64,000 bases of DNA, from positions 99,949-163,948 of IMG/VR virus record IMGVR_UViG_3300031857_024892; one strand, 5' to 3'. Made by a program: the position numbers and the translations under genes. Below the pieces are notes generated by a model, which was given only the letters and a program-made list of their open reading frames with translations, searched no databases and had not been told where the DNA came from. Shown piece by piece: positions 5,568 through 63,709 of this stretch (its first letter is position 1; each line of letters opens with the position of its first letter). This DNA comes from a virus.

Positions 5568-7163
5568 ATGGAAGAGACAGACAAGTTAGTCGTCTTTGAT
5601 GCAGCTGCTCGTGAGAAGCTCCTCGCGGGTGTCAATACTTTGGCCGATGCTGTCCGAGTGACGATGGGCCCACGAGGTCGCAACGTCCTGATCGAGCAGC
5701 GCGGTCAACACCCGATCGTCACTAAGGACGGCGTCACTGTTGCGAAGTCGATCAATCTCCGCGACAAGTTGCAGAACTTGGGCGCCCAGATGATCAAGGA
5801 GGCAGCGTCCCGTTCGGCTGATGAAGCAGGAGATGGGACAACCACAGCAACTGTCCTCACGCAGGCGATCTTCAGCGAAGGCCTAAAGCTTGTTCTAGCA
5901 GGCTACCCATCGACTGACATCAAGGCGGGTATCGACCAAGCAGTCGAGCAGATCATCAGTAAGATTGACCAGATCGCTGTGCCTGCGGGATCACCAGAGG
6001 TACTGCGTCGTGTTGCAGTCATCTCAGCCAACGGCGAAGAGAGCCTGGGCGAGCTGATTGAGAATGCCATCAGGACAGTGGGTGAGGACGGTGTCGTCAC
6101 AGTCGAGGAAGCAAAGGGTTACAACAGCAGCTTGACTGTCGTCGATGGCACTCGCATTGACCGCGGATACACGTCTCCCTACTTCGTCACCGATCAAGAT
6201 CGGATGGTGTGTGAGATGGAGAAGCCTGCTGTGCTCCTCCTGAATAGGCGGATTGAGACGATCAAGGACATTGTGGGCCTCCTCGAGAAGAGCCTGTCCA
6301 ACAAGCGCCCACTCCTCATCATCGCAGACGACATCGACGGCGAAGCAATGCAGACACTCGTCCTTAACAGAGTGCGTGGTGCATTGAGCGTTTGTGCCAT
6401 CAGAGCTCCTGGGGCTGGCGCAGGTCGATATGATCAGATGCAGGATCTTGCTGTCCTGCTCGGCACTCGTGTCTTCTCTGCTGCTGATGCTGAGGATCTG
6501 TCAAAGGTGCAACTCACAGAGTTAGGCACATGCAACAAGGCGCTGATCGGGCGCACCGAGACAGTTCTAGTAGGCGCCAATGCTGACAGAGATCGGGTAG
6601 GTGAACGCCTCGACGAGATCCGGAAGCAGTATGCAGAGGCGATCGATGAGGGTGAGCGGCTGCAGACAAAGCAGCGTCTTGCCCGCCTATCAGGTGGCGT
6701 TGCCATCCTCCGTGTTGGCGGTGCCACCGAGGCGGAGCTTAAGGAACGTAAGGATCGTGCTGACGACGCACTGCACGCTGTGCAAGCTGCCATGAAGGAG
6801 GGTGTCGTCCCCGGCGGTGGCACAACACTCGTCAGAGCAGCCAACGATGTCCCGCTTCCTGCTGGTGACTTCACACCTGTTCAGGCGGGCTTTCAGGTTG
6901 TCAAGACAGCATGCCGTGCACCGTTCAGGCAGATCGTCACAAATAGCGGTGGAACACCCGAGATTGTGCTCAACCACTTGAACACGTTAAGCAGCACACA
7001 CGTCTACGATGCCTTCCACGGCACTTATGGAGAGATGCTCGAGCTTGGGATCGTTGATCCTGCGCGGGTCGTCAAGTGTGCTCTGAGAAATGCCGCCTCT
7101 GCAGCAGGCATGATGCTCACTGTAGGATGCGCTCTCGTTGAGGATGAAGCGCCTGCAACGTGA
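5568..7163 (+). CDS. groEL: GroEL-type chaperonin (Hsp60)
   Basis: 531 residues, full length for the family. ATP-site motifs are clear: TMGPRGRNV (32-40), KDGVTVAKS (53-61), GDGTTTATV (88-96) and PGGGTTL near 414. The C-terminus lacks the GGM repeat of bacterial GroEL and ends DEAPAT. The protein would form a folding chamber for phage proteins, as in phage EL. No GroES homologue is recognisable in the window, so it may use host GroES or work without one, as reported for EL. It is followed directly by a small operon. Confidence 0.95.
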   Translation: MEETDKLVVFDAAAREKLLAGVNTLADAVRVTMGPRGRNVLIEQRGQHPIVTKDGVTVAKSINLRDKLQNLGAQMIKEAASRSADEAGDGTTTATVLTQAIFSEGLKLVLAGYPSTDIKAGIDQAVEQIISKIDQIAVPAGSPEVLRRVAVISANGEESLGELIENAIRTVGEDGVVTVEEAKGYNSSLTVVDGTRIDRGYTSPYFVTDQDRMVCEMEKPAVLLLNRRIETIKDIVGLLEKSLSNKRPLLIIADDIDGEAMQTLVLNRVRGALSVCAIRAPGAGAGRYDQMQDLAVLLGTRVFSAADAEDLSKVQLTELGTCNKALIGRTETVLVGANADRDRVGERLDEIRKQYAEAIDEGERLQTKQRLARLSGGVAILRVGGATEAELKERKDRADDALHAVQAAMKEGVVPGGGTTLVRAANDVPLPAGDFTPVQAGFQVVKTACRAPFRQIVTNSGGTPEIVLNHLNTLSSTHVYDAFHGTYGEMLELGIVDPARVVKCALRNAASAAGMMLTVGCALVEDEAPAT

Positions 7164-8003: not shown

Positions 8004-8022
8004 TCACCGGCAAAACGGTGTT
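8004..8022 (+). terminator. Weak terminator-like hairpin
   Basis: CACCG/CGGTG with a GCAAAA loop, flanked by TTTT and TTT, between the previous stop and the hsp20 gene. The 5-bp stem suggests attenuation at most. Confidence 0.35.
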
Positions 8023-8044
8023 TAAATCAAGCTCAGGAGGAAAC

Positions 8045-8407
8045 ATGGCATACACATTCTACAAGTACGACTACAACACACCCCACCCTGACACGGCTCG
8101 TGCAAACATCCTAAGCAACGACAAGGGCATGACGATCGAGCTTGAAGCACCAGGCTTCAGCCGTAGCGACATCACTGTCGAGACGAAGGGGTCAACACTG
8201 ACAGTGACAGCAAAGCGCACTGACGCTCCCGAGGAGAAGTATCGCATTCAGGAGTTTAACGCACACCACTTGACACGGTCGTGGACACTTCCCAAGTCGA
8301 TCGACGTTGACAAGATCGTTGCAGCGTACGATGCAGGCATCCTCACGTTGACGATGCCCTACCGCAGCGACTCCGTCTTCGAGACACGTCGCATCGAGAT
8401 CGCCTGA
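8045..8407 (+). CDS. Hsp20 / alpha-crystallin small heat-shock protein
   Basis: 120 residues; the ATG follows AGGAGGAAAC. It has the alpha-crystallin domain, with MTIELEAPGFSRSDITVE, the beta strands TLTVTAKR, and the C-terminal AYDAGILTLTMPY matching the family AxxxxGVLxLxxP. It would hold unfolding proteins for refolding by a chaperonin such as the GroEL 0.9 kb upstream. Small heat-shock proteins are common in marine T4-like phages. Confidence 0.9.
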   Translation: MAYTFYKYDYNTPHPDTARANILSNDKGMTIELEAPGFSRSDITVETKGSTLTVTAKRTDAPEEKYRIQEFNAHHLTRSWTLPKSIDVDKIVAAYDAGILTLTMPYRSDSVFETRRIEIA

Positions 8408-8503: not shown

Positions 8504-9238
8504 ATGAACGACTCACTCGACCAATACTTCAAGCAGATCGCAACTGGTAAGCTTCTCACACACGCAGAGGAGATCGAGCTCTCACAGCGGATCGAGGCAG
8601 GTGATAATGAGGCACGTCGGATCATGATCCAGTCGAACCTTCGTCTGGCGATCTCGATCGCCAAGAAGTACCAGCGGAGCGGCTGCAACCTGGAGGATCT
8701 CATCCAGGAGTCGAACGTGGGCCTGATCAAGGCAGTCGATCGATTTGATTGGCGTCGGGGTTTCAAGTTCAGCACCTACGCATCCTGGTGGATCAAGCAG
8801 GCCGTCCGTCGGCACGTGACTGACTCGATGTCTGACGTTCGGATGCCTTCTCACGCCGTGTCGCTGGCCTACAAGATCAGCAATTTCATCCGCGACTACG
8901 AGAACGAGTTCAACAACAGGCCCACGAACACTGAAATCGCTGAGATGCTGGGTGTCTCTGAGGAGACGGTCAAGGAGTCGCTGTACAACACTGGGCTCAC
9001 TTCGACGATCTCTCTTGACACTCCCGTAGGTGACGAGTCGGATCGCACACTGATGGAGACGATCGTCGACGACCGCGGGACGCACATCGATGAGCTGCTC
9101 GATCGAGCTCGTGTCTTTGATGTGGTCAAGCAGTGCATGCATCTTCTCACTCCCCGCGAGGAGCAGGTACTTCGTCTTCGGTTCGGCATCACTGATATCT
9201 CTGACATCGACGCACTTCCCAACACTCTTCAGGTTTGA
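8504..9238 (+). CDS. Sigma70-family RNA polymerase sigma factor lacking the region 4.2 HTH
   Basis: 244 residues. Region 1.2 (DSLDQYFKQIATGKLLTHAE), region 2 (SNLRLAISIAKKYQ, DLIQESNVGLIKAVDRFD, KFSTYASWWIKQAVRR) and region 3 are present, so it should bind core polymerase and open a -10. Region 4.1 begins normally (LTPREEQVLRLRFGI near 215), but the protein ends at TLQV, before the helix-turn-helix that reads the -35. A separate HTH-like protein is encoded 17 nt downstream. It has its own promoter and the Shine-Dalgarno AGGAGG. Whether host or phage polymerase is the partner cannot be seen. Confidence 0.9.
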   Translation: MNDSLDQYFKQIATGKLLTHAEEIELSQRIEAGDNEARRIMIQSNLRLAISIAKKYQRSGCNLEDLIQESNVGLIKAVDRFDWRRGFKFSTYASWWIKQAVRRHVTDSMSDVRMPSHAVSLAYKISNFIRDYENEFNNRPTNTEIAEMLGVSEETVKESLYNTGLTSTISLDTPVGDESDRTLMETIVDDRGTHIDELLDRARVFDVVKQCMHLLTPREEQVLRLRFGITDISDIDALPNTLQV

Positions 9239-53259: not shown

Positions 53260-53577
53260 ATGGTCACCCGCAACGACTCTGACGTCCAACAGCTGCTAGA
53301 TGAGAACAGTAAGGTCATCATCATGTTCGGTGCAACTTGGTGTGGGCCATGCAAGACATTCAAGCCCCACTTCCAGAACATCAGCCTTGAGAACTCAGAC
53401 ATCGTCTTCGCCTACTGTGATGTGGAAGAGACGAATGCGCTGGCATCAGAGCTAGAGATCCAATCAGTTCCCACTGTGGTCAGCTTCTTCAACGGGATCG
53501 AGGATGCAACTGTCGTAGGACCTTCGGTCGACCGCGTGAAGGAGCTAGTAGAAAAGCTGCGTTCAAAGAATAGTTAG
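53260..53577 (+). CDS. Thioredoxin
   Basis: 105 residues, the usual size. VIIMFGATWCGPCKTFKPHF contains the redox pair Cys28-Cys31, and SVPTVVSFFNG carries the cis-Pro. It may keep phage enzymes reduced or act as a folding helper, as host thioredoxin does for T7 polymerase. Confidence 0.95.
   Translation: MVTRNDSDVQQLLDENSKVIIMFGATWCGPCKTFKPHFQNISLENSDIVFAYCDVEETNALASELEIQSVPTVVSFFNGIEDATVVGPSVDRVKELVEKLRSKNS
53571..53576 (+). promoter_or_regulatory. Putative leaderless late element TAGTTA
   Basis: TAGTTA, 5 nt (GATGC), ATG at 53582; it overlaps the thioredoxin stop codon. No Shine-Dalgarno. Confidence 0.5.
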
Positions 53578-60368: not shown

Positions 60369-60590
60369 ATGTCCATCACAGTCAGCGTCATTGCGGCGTA
60401 CATGGCGTCATTGCAGGTTCCAGCTGAGACGGCAGAGATGAGGCCCATCACACTGTCACCCGACGACTCAACACTCATCATCATTCCTGCTTTTTCTGCC
60501 CCGCAGTTTGAGCGGCCGCTGCTTCTGCAGCCTGGACCTGTGGTGCAGCTAGCACCAGAAAATCTCGAAGATCTGATAGACAGACAGTGA
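60369..60590 (+). CDS. Unknown small protein (73 aa), convergent with protease gene
   Basis: MSITVSVIAAYMASLQVPAE then LIIIPAFSAPQFERPLLLQP. AGGAG precedes the ATG. Its last 110 bp overlap the antisense protease 3' end, so one of the two frames may be shorter than drawn. Confidence 0.45.
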   Translation: MSITVSVIAAYMASLQVPAETAEMRPITLSPDDSTLIIIPAFSAPQFERPLLLQPGPVVQLAPENLEDLIDRQ

Positions 60591-61197
60591 TCGTGTAGTG
60601 GTTGAACGACTTCATCACGGCTGACACGACCCCGACGACCTCACCATCCTCATCTAGCACACCCGCGCCGGAGGAACCACCTGCGACTGGGATTGTGCTG
60701 AGACACCGGCCCTCGCTGCGTCCAGTGAACCTACCATCGTAGATAGGTAGTGTATTTGAACTGAAGGCTCCACCTGGGTAGGCGATGATGCTGACTGGCT
60801 CTCCGAGTGCAGGATCCTTTTGTGCGATCTCTCTTGCTGGGCCGGGCTTTGCAGGCATCAAGCAGAGATCAGAGCTCACGTTGTATGTGATCCGCTCAAC
60901 GGGTGTCTGCTCTCCTGATCCGCCTGACGTAATGACGACCTGCCTAGCAAGCGAGGTACCGAGCCCACTGCTCAGGCTGCAGACGTGTGCTGCAGTCAAC
61001 CAGTAGTAGTTGTCGTTCCAGGTGATCCGTGTTGCTGTGCCTGCCGCTGCTGCTCCGCCGATCTTGCACGTCTGTGCATCTTCATCCTCGCAGGCAAGGA
61101 TGATCTCCTTCACGGCCACGTGACCAGCTGTCAGACGTGGATCAAATCTATGAATGCAGCCCAGTAGAAAGCTAAGTAAAATCACAGCACACCTCAC
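60481..61197 (-). CDS. Trypsin-like serine protease, predicted lipoprotein
   Basis: 238 residues from a GTG at 61197; a TTG at 61236 would extend it. MRCAVILLSFLLGCIHRF is a short lipoprotein signal with lipobox LLGC (Cys14). The triad is complete: YYWLTAAHVC (His71), NVSSDLCLM (Asp110) and PVAGGSSGAGV (Ser175). GEVVGVVSAV matches the usual strand after the Ser. It should act in the periplasm or on the outer membrane. Antisense to nearly all genes. Such a protease is unusual in a tailed phage and could be a host-derived moron. Alternatively it may process virion proteins, but the signal argues against this. Confidence 0.8.
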   Translation of the reverse strand: MRCAVILLSFLLGCIHRFDPRLTAGHVAVKEIILACEDEDAQTCKIGGAAAAGTATRITWNDNYYWLTAAHVCSLSSGLGTSLARQVVITSGGSGEQTPVERITYNVSSDLCLMPAKPGPAREIAQKDPALGEPVSIIAYPGGAFSSNTLPIYDGRFTGRSEGRCLSTIPVAGGSSGAGVLDEDGEVVGVVSAVMKSFNHYTITVCLSDLRDFLVLAAPQVQAAEAAAAQTAGQKKQE

Positions 61198-61301
61198 ATA
61201 TTTAAGTATGGTGCAACATCTCGGGGCTTCGCACAAACACGCACGTTGTCTTGTAAACTATGACGCAATTAGATAAGATAGTCATGCATCAAGAGGCGAC
61301 A

Positions 61302-61479: not shown

Positions 61480-61704
61480 ATGAAGACAGTAATCGTAATG
61501 GTATTCGCAGCGCTCGCAGCAACTCAGCTCACCGGTTGCGGTGGTGACAAGGCTGACACTGCAGGTGATACTGCAGGCACCCCAGTTGATACCGCCACTC
61601 AGGACACCGGTTCTGACACTGGCGACACCCAGGACACTTCTGCTCAGGACACTGGCGCAGATACCGGTGGTGACACTGCAGACACTGCAGCAGCTGAGGG
61701 CTGA
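61480..61704 (+). CDS. Asp/Thr-repeat lipoprotein (74 aa)
   Basis: MKTVIVMVFAALAATQLTGC is a clear lipoprotein signal (LTGC, Cys20). The mature part is almost only Asp, Thr, Gly, Ala and Gln, in repeats such as DTGSDTGDTQDT. Similar acidic repeat lipoproteins are common in Myxococcota and relatives. Upstream lies TTAAAA-N17-TATAAT and then AAGGAG. It might coat the cell surface or act as a spacer; no activity expected. Confidence 0.7.
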   Translation: MKTVIVMVFAALAATQLTGCGGDKADTAGDTAGTPVDTATQDTGSDTGDTQDTSAQDTGADTGGDTADTAAAEG

Positions 61705-61747: not shown

Positions 61748-61822
61748 GCCTTACAAGTGTAGATAGCGACACACGGGATTTGTAACCCCGAGAGGAAGGC
61801 GCAAGTCCTTCGTGAGGCACCA
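61748..61822 (+). tRNA. tRNA-Thr(TGT), unusual D and T loops
   Basis: Acceptor GCCTTAC/GTGAGGC, D stem GTGT/ACAC, anticodon loop TTTGTAA, T stem GAAGG/CCTTC and encoded CCA. The D loop AGATAGCG lacks the paired GG and the T loop is CGCAAGT rather than TTCRANN. Confidence 0.75.
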
Positions 61823-61887: not shown

Positions 61888-62637
61888 ATGAAATGCATCT
61901 GTAAGTTTGAAACAGACACGTTTAGGACACTTAGAAGTCATTTTGCAACAAATCATCCAAATGATGACTTTTTAACTAACTTCTTTGACTTAATAGAAGA
62001 AAACTGGGTATCGTCGGGTAGAGGACTTAGAAGGAGTTACCTTCTGCAAAAAGCCTCATACAAATGCACAAGGTGCGGTTTTGATGAGAGACGACCTTGT
62101 GGTTCTACAATCCTAGAAATTGATCACATTGATGGAAATCATCAGAACAATGTGATCGAAAACCTTCAAGTTCTTTGCCCAAACTGCCACGCTCTAACAC
62201 CAAAGTACAGAAACTGGCACAACAAGGGAAATAAAAAGAATACAGAAGTTTTAAGACCTGGAAACAAAGATTACGATAAGAGAAAAGAAATCAAGGGCGA
62301 AAGGCCACAACGTGCCAGACAGCCTAAAAAGAAAAAGGTTGATGAAGCAATGATCAAGCTCAAAGAGATGAAGGCTCAGTTTGAGGAAGACTTCAAGAAA
62401 GAAGTGCTTCGTCTACATGAGACTGGTGAGATTGATTTTTCAAAGTACGGTTGGGTTCAGTTGTTAGCTGAGAAAATCGATGAACAACCACAAATAGTTG
62501 GTCGTCGTGTTAGAAAGCTTCTCCCAAACTTTTTTGTTGAACATTGCTTCTCTAGAGAATATACTAAGTGTAGAAGAAATAAATTGGAGAGGATCCGGCC
62601 AGATGAGGACGCAGTCTTGAAAACTGTCGCGGGTTAA
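61888..62637 (+). CDS. HNH endonuclease, C-terminus encoded by a tRNA gene
   Basis: 249 residues. An N-terminal Cys/His part (KCICKFETDTFRTLRSHFAT, NH) resembles a zinc finger. The HNH domain is YKCTRCGFDERRPCGS, ILEIDHIDGNHQNNVIENLQ and VLCPNCHALTPKYRNWHN, with the DH, N and H metal residues and four structural Cys. A Lys-rich linker and a helical C-terminal part (YGWVQLLAEKIDEQPQIVGR) follow. The last 17 codons are the 5' part of tRNA-Ser. Located between two tRNA genes, it is a probable free-standing homing nuclease. Confidence 0.85.
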   Translation: MKCICKFETDTFRTLRSHFATNHPNDDFLTNFFDLIEENWVSSGRGLRRSYLLQKASYKCTRCGFDERRPCGSTILEIDHIDGNHQNNVIENLQVLCPNCHALTPKYRNWHNKGNKKNTEVLRPGNKDYDKRKEIKGERPQRARQPKKKKVDEAMIKLKEMKAQFEEDFKKEVLRLHETGEIDFSKYGWVQLLAEKIDEQPQIVGRRVRKLLPNFFVEHCFSREYTKCRRNKLERIRPDEDAVLKTVAG

Positions 62638-62674
62638 GAGCCCGTTGTGGGTGCGAGTCCCACCTTCTCCGCCA
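62586..62674 (+). tRNA. tRNA-Ser(TGA)
   Basis: Acceptor GGAGAGG/CTTCTCC, anticodon arm CAGT-CTTGAAA-ACTG, a long variable arm CGGGTTAAGAGCCCG, T arm GTGGG-TGCGAGT-CCCAC, encoded CCA. It reads UCA. Its first 52 nt are also coding sequence of the HNH gene. Confidence 0.9.
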
Positions 62675-62679
62675 ATTAC

Positions 62680-62712
62680 AACCGACGCCTATTAATTTGG
62701 GCGTCGGTTTTT
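62680..62712 (+). terminator. Rho-independent terminator after tRNA-Ser
   Basis: ACCGACGCC (62681-62689), a loop, GGCGTCGGT (62700-62708), then TTTT. A 9-bp perfect stem. Confidence 0.9.
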
Positions 62713-62740
62713 AACTCAACAAACAAACAGGACATAACAG

Positions 62741-63709
62741 ATGATCGCCCTTCTCACACTCCTTCTTGCATGTTCTAACGACGTACCCTCTCCAGAGCCT
62801 GTCAAGGCGCAGGCCTTCGACCGTGCAAAGATTGCAGCATTTCAGCCTCTCCCCGTTGACTTCTTTGGTGGCCTTGATGCGCCTCGATCAGAGATGATCG
62901 CACTGGGCGCACGTCTCTTTCGCGACCCAAAGCTCTCAGCGTCGGGCAAGATCTCCTGTAACTCATGCCACGACCTTGAGACGAACGGCGCTGATAATTT
63001 GGCCTTCTCTCTTGGTCACGACCGCCACCCAGTAGGACGCAACTCTCCCACCGTCTTCAACGCCGCAGGCCAGATCTCCCAGTTTTGGGATGGCAGGGCG
63101 CACAATGTTGAGGAACAAGCACTCGGGCCCATCCTTGCTGCCGGTGAGATGGCGATGCCGAATGAGGCTGCTGTGGTATCTGTCCTGAAGAACGACCACA
63201 CCTACGTGGCCGACTTCAAGGCCGCATTCCCAGATCAGGATGACCCTGTCACCTTCCACAATGTGGGCTTTGCGATCGGCGCCTTTGAGCGTACGCTGAC
63301 GAAGCCGAGCAGGTGGGATAAGTTCCTGATGGGTGACGACAATGCGCTGGGTGATGTTGAGAAGCAGGGTGTCACCAACTTCGTGGAGCTCGGTTGTTCA
63401 GGCTGTCACAGCGGTGCGCTTCTCGGAGGCAGTGCTCTCATGAAGCTGGGTGCCGTGTCGCCTTGGCCCAATCAGTCAGATCAGGGTAAGTTCGGCCTCA
63501 CCAAGGACGATGCGGATAAGATGGTGTTCAAGGTGGCACCTCTTCGTTATGCTACAGAAACGGCTCCCTACTTCCACGATGCCTCGGCACCCGACCTGAA
63601 GACAGCGATCAAGCTGATGGGTCGCCACCAGCTCGGCAAGGAGATCAGTGACACACAGGCATCGGAGATCGAGGCATGGCTTAGTTCGACGTCAGGCCCT
63701 GTCGAGTAG
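62741..63709 (+). CDS. Diheme cytochrome c peroxidase (CcpA/MauG family), lipoprotein
   Basis: 322 residues. MIALLTLLLACSND has a lipobox (LLAC, Cys11). Two heme-c sites are present: SCNSCHDLE (CxxCH 73-77) and GCSGCHSG (CxxCH 219-223). Family landmarks: SQFWDGRAHNVEEQA, GPILAAGEMAMP, GAFERTLTKPSRWD and FKVAPLRYATETAPYFHDAS, with a Met just before FKV as heme-ligand candidate. It should reduce hydrogen peroxide to water in the periplasm using cytochrome c electrons. Heme attachment would need the host Ccm system. Base composition matches neighbouring phage genes. A strong terminator lies directly upstream, and no promoter is clear. Confidence 0.9.
   Translation: MIALLTLLLACSNDVPSPEPVKAQAFDRAKIAAFQPLPVDFFGGLDAPRSEMIALGARLFRDPKLSASGKISCNSCHDLETNGADNLAFSLGHDRHPVGRNSPTVFNAAGQISQFWDGRAHNVEEQALGPILAAGEMAMPNEAAVVSVLKNDHTYVADFKAAFPDQDDPVTFHNVGFAIGAFERTLTKPSRWDKFLMGDDNALGDVEKQGVTNFVELGCSGCHSGALLGGSALMKLGAVSPWPNQSDQGKFGLTKDDADKMVFKVAPLRYATETAPYFHDASAPDLKTAIKLMGRHQLGKEISDTQASEIEAWLSSTSGPVE

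Follow-up and report, generated by a model that had tools for sequence, protein, structure and literature searches.

Phages carry enzymes of photosynthesis and of sulfur, nitrogen and methane metabolism. Published examples include phage SoxCD with cytochrome c motifs (PMC8190135), phage NorB/NirK (PMC8115048) and phage PmoC (PMC7674155). The bacterial di-haem cytochrome c peroxidases (CcPs) act beyond the inner membrane and reduce hydrogen peroxide to water with electrons from respiration. They are represented by CcpA of P. aeruginosa (1EB7/2VHD), CcpR of N. gonorrhoeae (6FU3), MacA of Geobacter and YhjA/Ccp of E. coli. In these enzymes the inter-haem Trp serves as an electron relay and the distal Glu as an acid-base catalyst (PMC6405878). 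The E. coli Ccp is a respiratory H2O2 oxidase and an inefficient scavenger that hardly lowers periplasmic H2O2 (PMC8115020). No published phage CcP was found in the open-licence papers that were searched. PHROGs contains no CcP family, and PHROGs-based automatic phage annotation therefore misses the gene. No credible phage CcP was found in INPHARED; the matches obtained there, at 39% identity, lie in short Salmonella or E. coli records or in host-sized contigs and were interpreted as host DNA.

The stretch of DNA analysed here (the window, 64,000 nucleotides) corresponds to positions 99949-163948 of a 163,948-bp IMG/VR record and is thus the last 64 kb of a T4-like viral contig. A CcP gene is located near its end.

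The encoded di-haem peroxidase

The plus strand of the window encodes an intact canonical di-haem CcP at 62741-63709. The open reading frame is complete, starts with ATG and is preceded by AGGA. The features of the gene are as follows.

62729..62732, plus strand: AGGA, a ribosome-binding-like site ahead of the CcP start, read from the sequence
62741..63709, plus strand: coding sequence of the di-haem cytochrome c peroxidase (CcpA/CcpR type), 322 aa, a predicted periplasmic lipoprotein; Pfam, solved relatives, AlphaFold2 and Foldseek
62741..62773, plus strand: predicted type II signal, very short (MIALLTLLLA, lipobox Cys11) and free of Lys/Arg; read directly
62957..62971, plus strand: CNSCH, site of the peroxidatic (P, low-potential) haem with His77 as proximal ligand; aligned with C51-H55 of P. 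aeruginosa CcpA
63017..63019, plus strand: His93, counterpart of the distal ligand His71 of P. aeruginosa CcpA; alignment
63086..63088, plus strand: Trp116 of FWDGRA, equivalent to Trp94, the inter-haem electron relay; alignment, role from PMC6405878
63146..63151, plus strand: Glu136-Met137 of AGEMAMP, the Glu equivalent to Glu114, the distal acid-base catalyst; alignment, role of the equivalent Glu from PMC6405878
63395..63409, plus strand: CSGCH, site of the electron-transfer (E, high-potential) haem with His223 as proximal ligand; aligned with C197-H201
63617..63619, plus strand: Met293, equivalent to Met275, axial ligand of the E haem and marker of a canonical CcP as opposed to MauG (Tyr); alignment

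The protein matches the Pfam family CCP_MauG with an E-value of 1.5e-49 and 168.9 bits (cut-off 25.6), and a Cytochrom_C domain is also detected. The best solved relatives are bacterial CcpA/CcpR enzymes (1e-67), aligned over residues 31-321, approximately the whole mature length. A chance match is excluded by these E-values. The AlphaFold2 model has a mean pLDDT of 81.8 and a pTM of 0.78; it was built without haem and supports the fold only. A Foldseek comparison of this model with solved CcPs gave an E-value of 2e-26, with the N. gonorrhoeae, Paracoccus and Geobacter enzymes, solved in an active or mixed-valence form, as the best matches. The initial annotation had proposed a di-haem CcP at exactly these coordinates, and residue mapping and the structural model bear this out. 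All of the motifs that it listed were located (CNSCH at residues 73-77, CSGCH at 219-223, FWDGRA at 115-120, AGEMAMP at 134-140 and TAPYFHD at 274-280), as was its lipobox, LLA-C11 after 10 residues.

Equivalent residues were assigned by alignment to P. aeruginosa CcpA, which reproduces the usual CcpA numbering; His279 of the phage protein aligns with His261. The catalytic residues are invariant across ten phage CcP copies. The inter-haem Trp116 and the distal Glu136, Gln126 and Pro130 are unchanged among the phage proteins, and all copies have Met at the position of Met293, as in a Met-His high-potential haem. A putative inter-haem Ca2+ site appears to be kept, with Asn101 contributing its side chain and Thr274 and Pro276 their backbone. 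The signal is only 10 residues long and lacks the usual positive charge, with the lipobox in place, and the other phage copies start with similar signals.

Viral setting, other carriers and partner genes

The rest of the record encodes a terminase, portal, major head protein, two tail sheaths and ribonucleotide reductase, and the terminase has its nearest relatives in T4-like Microcystis and Flavobacterium phages. The window itself encodes topoisomerase II subunits together with GroEL, Hsp20 and an RNA polymerase sigma factor, the last three clustered at 5568-7163, 8018-8407 and 8504-9238, respectively. No terminal repeat was found in the record, which is therefore probably a fragment. The CcP gene ends 291 bp before the end of the contig and is preceded by the following features.

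61480..61704, plus strand: small Asp/Thr-rich lipoprotein, whose homologue in contig G001 precedes HNH and CcP; open reading frame list, homology
61748..61819, plus strand: tRNA gene, anticodon by eye UGU (Thr); Rfam tRNA, 40.1 bits, gathering threshold 29
61888..62637, plus strand: HNH endonuclease gene, 52% identity in G001, where the order is the same; homology
62585..62671, plus strand: tRNA-Ser(UGA)-like gene shortly before CcP; Rfam tRNA-Sec, 36.4 bits, below the gathering threshold of 47, anticodon by eye
62680..62712, plus strand: terminator-like stem-loop and T run between the tRNA and CcP; found by eye, the automatic scan did not report it

The 3' end of the HNH reading frame overlaps the tRNA-Ser-like gene by approximately 50 bp (61888-62671). 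ARAGORN missed this tRNA-like gene, though it detected a tRNA pair in contig G002, where tRNA-Ser(UGA) and tRNA-Thr(UGU) end just before CcP. The minus strand at 60481-61236 encodes a serine protease of the trypsin type whose start is lipoprotein-like (LLGC); homologues occur in G002, G003 and G008.

Ten further viral contigs with a CcP gene were found. Nine belong to the same broad phage group (G001-G009) and come from eight metagenome datasets; the tenth (G010) is unrelated. The identities to the CcP of the window are 55-62% for G001-G006 and approximately 40% for G007-G009. In most of the nine group contigs phage genes surround CcP at a good distance from the contig ends, and in several of these phages the CcP cargo is held in a tRNA/HNH-rich stretch. 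The contig of G002 (171.5 kb) has 94 ORF matches to that of the window, among them the structural genes, which keep their order. The CcP of G002 lies 16.5 kb from one end of its contig and 154 kb from the other. The order lipoprotein-HNH-CcP is common to G001 and the window, and a block of tail genes lies approximately 46-49 kb downstream of CcP in both G001 and G002. Each of G003-G009 has 9 to 35 ORF matches, CcP included, to the two long contigs. One CcP-bearing phage contig also encodes a tmRNA (L109 8511-8896) with the tag ANNNNYFEVAQAA.

Two kinds of partner gene were found beside the phage CcP genes.

L003 11163-13049, L107 8099-9991 and L108 763-2655: phage acyl-CoA dehydrogenase of the VLCAD/ACAD9 type beside CcP; homology, 75% conserved
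L112 9057-10885, opposite strand: cytochrome b561-CcP pair among the tail genes of G010; homology

In G005 and G006 the dehydrogenase gene, of approximately 630 codons, ends about 10 bp before CcP, and in G002 a homologue follows CcP. The proteins are nearest to VLCAD and ACAD9, which are dehydrogenases and not H2O2-making oxidases. The gene is absent from the contig of the window, which stops shortly past CcP. A pattern search of IMG/VR for further phage dehydrogenases returned only the query's own, and this search can miss copies since it missed those of G005 and G006. No close donor of the dehydrogenase was found; the best match, at 47%, is in Myxococcota. The contig of G010 has 67% G+C and carries terminase, portal, head, tail and tape-measure genes on one strand. 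A second copy of its cytochrome b561-CcP pair was looked for, and none was found.

A helix-like N-terminal tag resembling LRxLIRExLxE opens many unrelated proteins of these phages, including those starting at 2578, 14844, 50757, 53582, 56225 and 57232 of the window. It was counted in 7 of 179 genes of the window (0.3 expected), 10 of 74 in G004 (0.4 expected) and 9 of 84 in G008 (1.0 expected), and is also present in G009. It may be a targeting tag of internal or packaged proteins.

Ancestry, selection and probable host

A tree of 85 CcPs was constructed. Seven close phage CcPs form clade A (support 100/100), and the three distant ones from G007-G009 form clade B (support 100/98), whose sister is from Verrucomicrobiota (100/99). 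Clade A lies within a Myxococcota-rich region of the tree and has no close sister. The distal His is kept in clade A and is Ala in clade B (L109, L110 and L111) and in its Verrucomicrobiota sister; it is present in 49 of 98 other bacterial CcPs of the set. By analogy, the Ala may indicate that the P haem does not have to be opened by reduction. The existence of two clades hints at two captures; separate acquisitions are not claimed, as a topology with a single phage clade is not rejected in the AU test (p 0.46). This phylogeny against bacterial CcpA, proposed earlier as a route to the donor, thus recovered phage clades and no close donor. The best bacterial homologue has 53% identity, and no close donor was detected among 84,980-species contigs and samples of 195 and 71 genomes by a pattern-based scan, which can miss some.

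The dN/dS values for four pairs of phage CcPs are 0.12, 0.08, 0.15 and 0.11, the last three with dS > 1, and show strong purifying selection. The G+C content of CcP follows that of its contig across ten contigs (r 0.95), which fits long residence. None of 13 related partial genomes, all fragments, contains CcP, which suggests an accessory gene.

A 393-aa lipoprotein is encoded near CcP in G002, with homologues in G001, G005 and G006. Of 71 genomes from the class of Deltaproteobacteria bacterium M1803 (NCBI Myxococcota), 68 contain a match to it, the best at 53% and 2.6e-107, against 64 of 146 genomes in a second Myxococcota sample, where the matches are mostly weaker. CcPs of the same class have very short lipoprotein signals, for example MLSLWLFAC and MLTILLTLGC, comparable to MIALLTLLLAC here. 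The host phylum is probably Myxococcota, and on these gene resemblances the host is perhaps, with a fair likelihood, in or near the class of M1803. A search for the phage capsid gene in 193 Myxococcota genomes gave no match and says little on the host.

Probable role in infection and relation to known systems

The CcP gene is located inside a viral genome between viral genes, is intact and is under purifying selection. It is likely to be an auxiliary metabolic gene, that is, a working phage-encoded CcP used in infection, a grading that leaves the respiratory purpose aside. The host Sec system would export the protein during infection; it would be lipidated at Cys11 and anchored in the envelope, and the host cytochrome c maturation (Ccm) system would load its two haems. 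The Met/His E haem would then accept electrons from a host cytochrome c or cupredoxin, Trp116 would relay them from the E haem to the P haem and Glu136 would help to split H2O2 to water. The benefit, less surely, may be that a cell that is poisoned or short of oxygen can keep its respiratory chain turning with H2O2 as the electron acceptor, peroxide removal being a by-product. In some phages, again less surely, this chain may also receive electrons of fatty acids through the phage acyl-CoA dehydrogenase.

Least certain of all is the purpose, with respiration and detoxification argued from gene company. Of the two roles that the initial annotation suggested, protection from peroxide or support of respiration, the partner genes favour the second. 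Respiratory support is favoured over detoxification alone, at somewhat better than even chances, because the E. coli Ccp is respiratory and the phage gene partners feed or carry electrons. If CcP served detoxification only, it would remove H2O2 from the envelope and shield the infected cell or the new virions, and respiration would be irrelevant. The enzyme chemistry would be the same, and the same phages encode a thioredoxin (53260-53577 here), a protein that has other roles in phages. This reading is unlikely, though a serious competitor, since the E. coli Ccp barely reduces periplasmic H2O2 (PMC8115020), the partner genes encode electron-transfer or electron-feeding enzymes and no catalase or AhpC was recognised by eye among the listed neighbours.

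An unused, neutral hitchhiker taken from the host would be consistent with the accessory distribution and with a tRNA/HNH region, where cargo can accumulate. It is improbable given dN/dS values of 0.08-0.15, the retention of every catalytic residue and the ribosome-binding-like sites before most CcP copies. It is slightly less probable still that the protein resembles MauG or MbnH in acting on another protein, which it would oxidise, instead of serving as a peroxidase: these enzymes belong to the same superfamily and their NCBIfam models do match, but at 134 bits against a cut-off of 363 for MbnH and 129.9 bits against 443.85 for MauG, and Met293 replaces the Tyr ligand of MauG, with sequence and fold nearest to CcpA. 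The initial annotation had placed the gene in a phage, which the structural genes of the record, the synteny and the nine further group contigs confirm, and had named a phage/host assembly chimera at 60-64 kb as its refuter; despite the nearby contig end and the resemblance of CcP to Myxococcota enzymes, comparison makes a chimera extremely improbable, because the same join would need repeating across many samples, given nine other contigs of the phage group with CcP (several with it far from contig ends), the lipoprotein-HNH-CcP order shared with G001, the upstream tRNA shared with G002 and a clade of the phage copies' own. Carriage of CcP is thus probably genuine, and selected as part of the way in which these viruses handle the infected cell, rather than an assembly error.

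A more speculative reading, less likely than not, is that unrelated tailed phages, namely T4-like phages of probable Myxococcota hosts and the siphophage- or prophage-like G010, repeatedly acquired CcP as a respiratory module, which the T4-like phages would combine with an acyl-CoA dehydrogenase that oxidises fatty acids. If so, infected cells would respire hydrogen peroxide with phage-encoded enzymes, and the cytochrome b561-CcP pair of G010 would be a self-contained quinol peroxidase. A phage peroxide reductase on the respiratory chain would extend the phage metabolic repertoire to peroxide, which infected cells may meet, as a stress or as an electron acceptor, at oxic-anoxic boundaries. It would also make testable whether the host must keep respiring in infection and whether a phage can supply the means.

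The enzyme is ordinary; what appears new is that several phages carry it. The phage CcP shares with the bacterial CcPs the domain layout, both haem sites and the equivalents of Trp94, Glu114, Met275 and His71, at approximately 40% identity; it differs in being phage-encoded, in its very short lipoprotein signal and in having no Trp at the position of Trp266. The acyl-CoA dehydrogenases have a counterpart in acdA of Microcystis phage MaAM05, which is likewise encoded in a phage genome. The identity to acdA is only approximately 34% over 59% of the protein, and the dehydrogenases found here, unlike acdA, resemble VLCAD and ACAD9 and, in three phages, are immediate neighbours of CcP. Like SoxCD, NorB/NirK and PmoC, the phage CcP is a host-type enzyme of energy metabolism in uncultured phages; unlike them, it is a different enzyme whose acceptor is H2O2.
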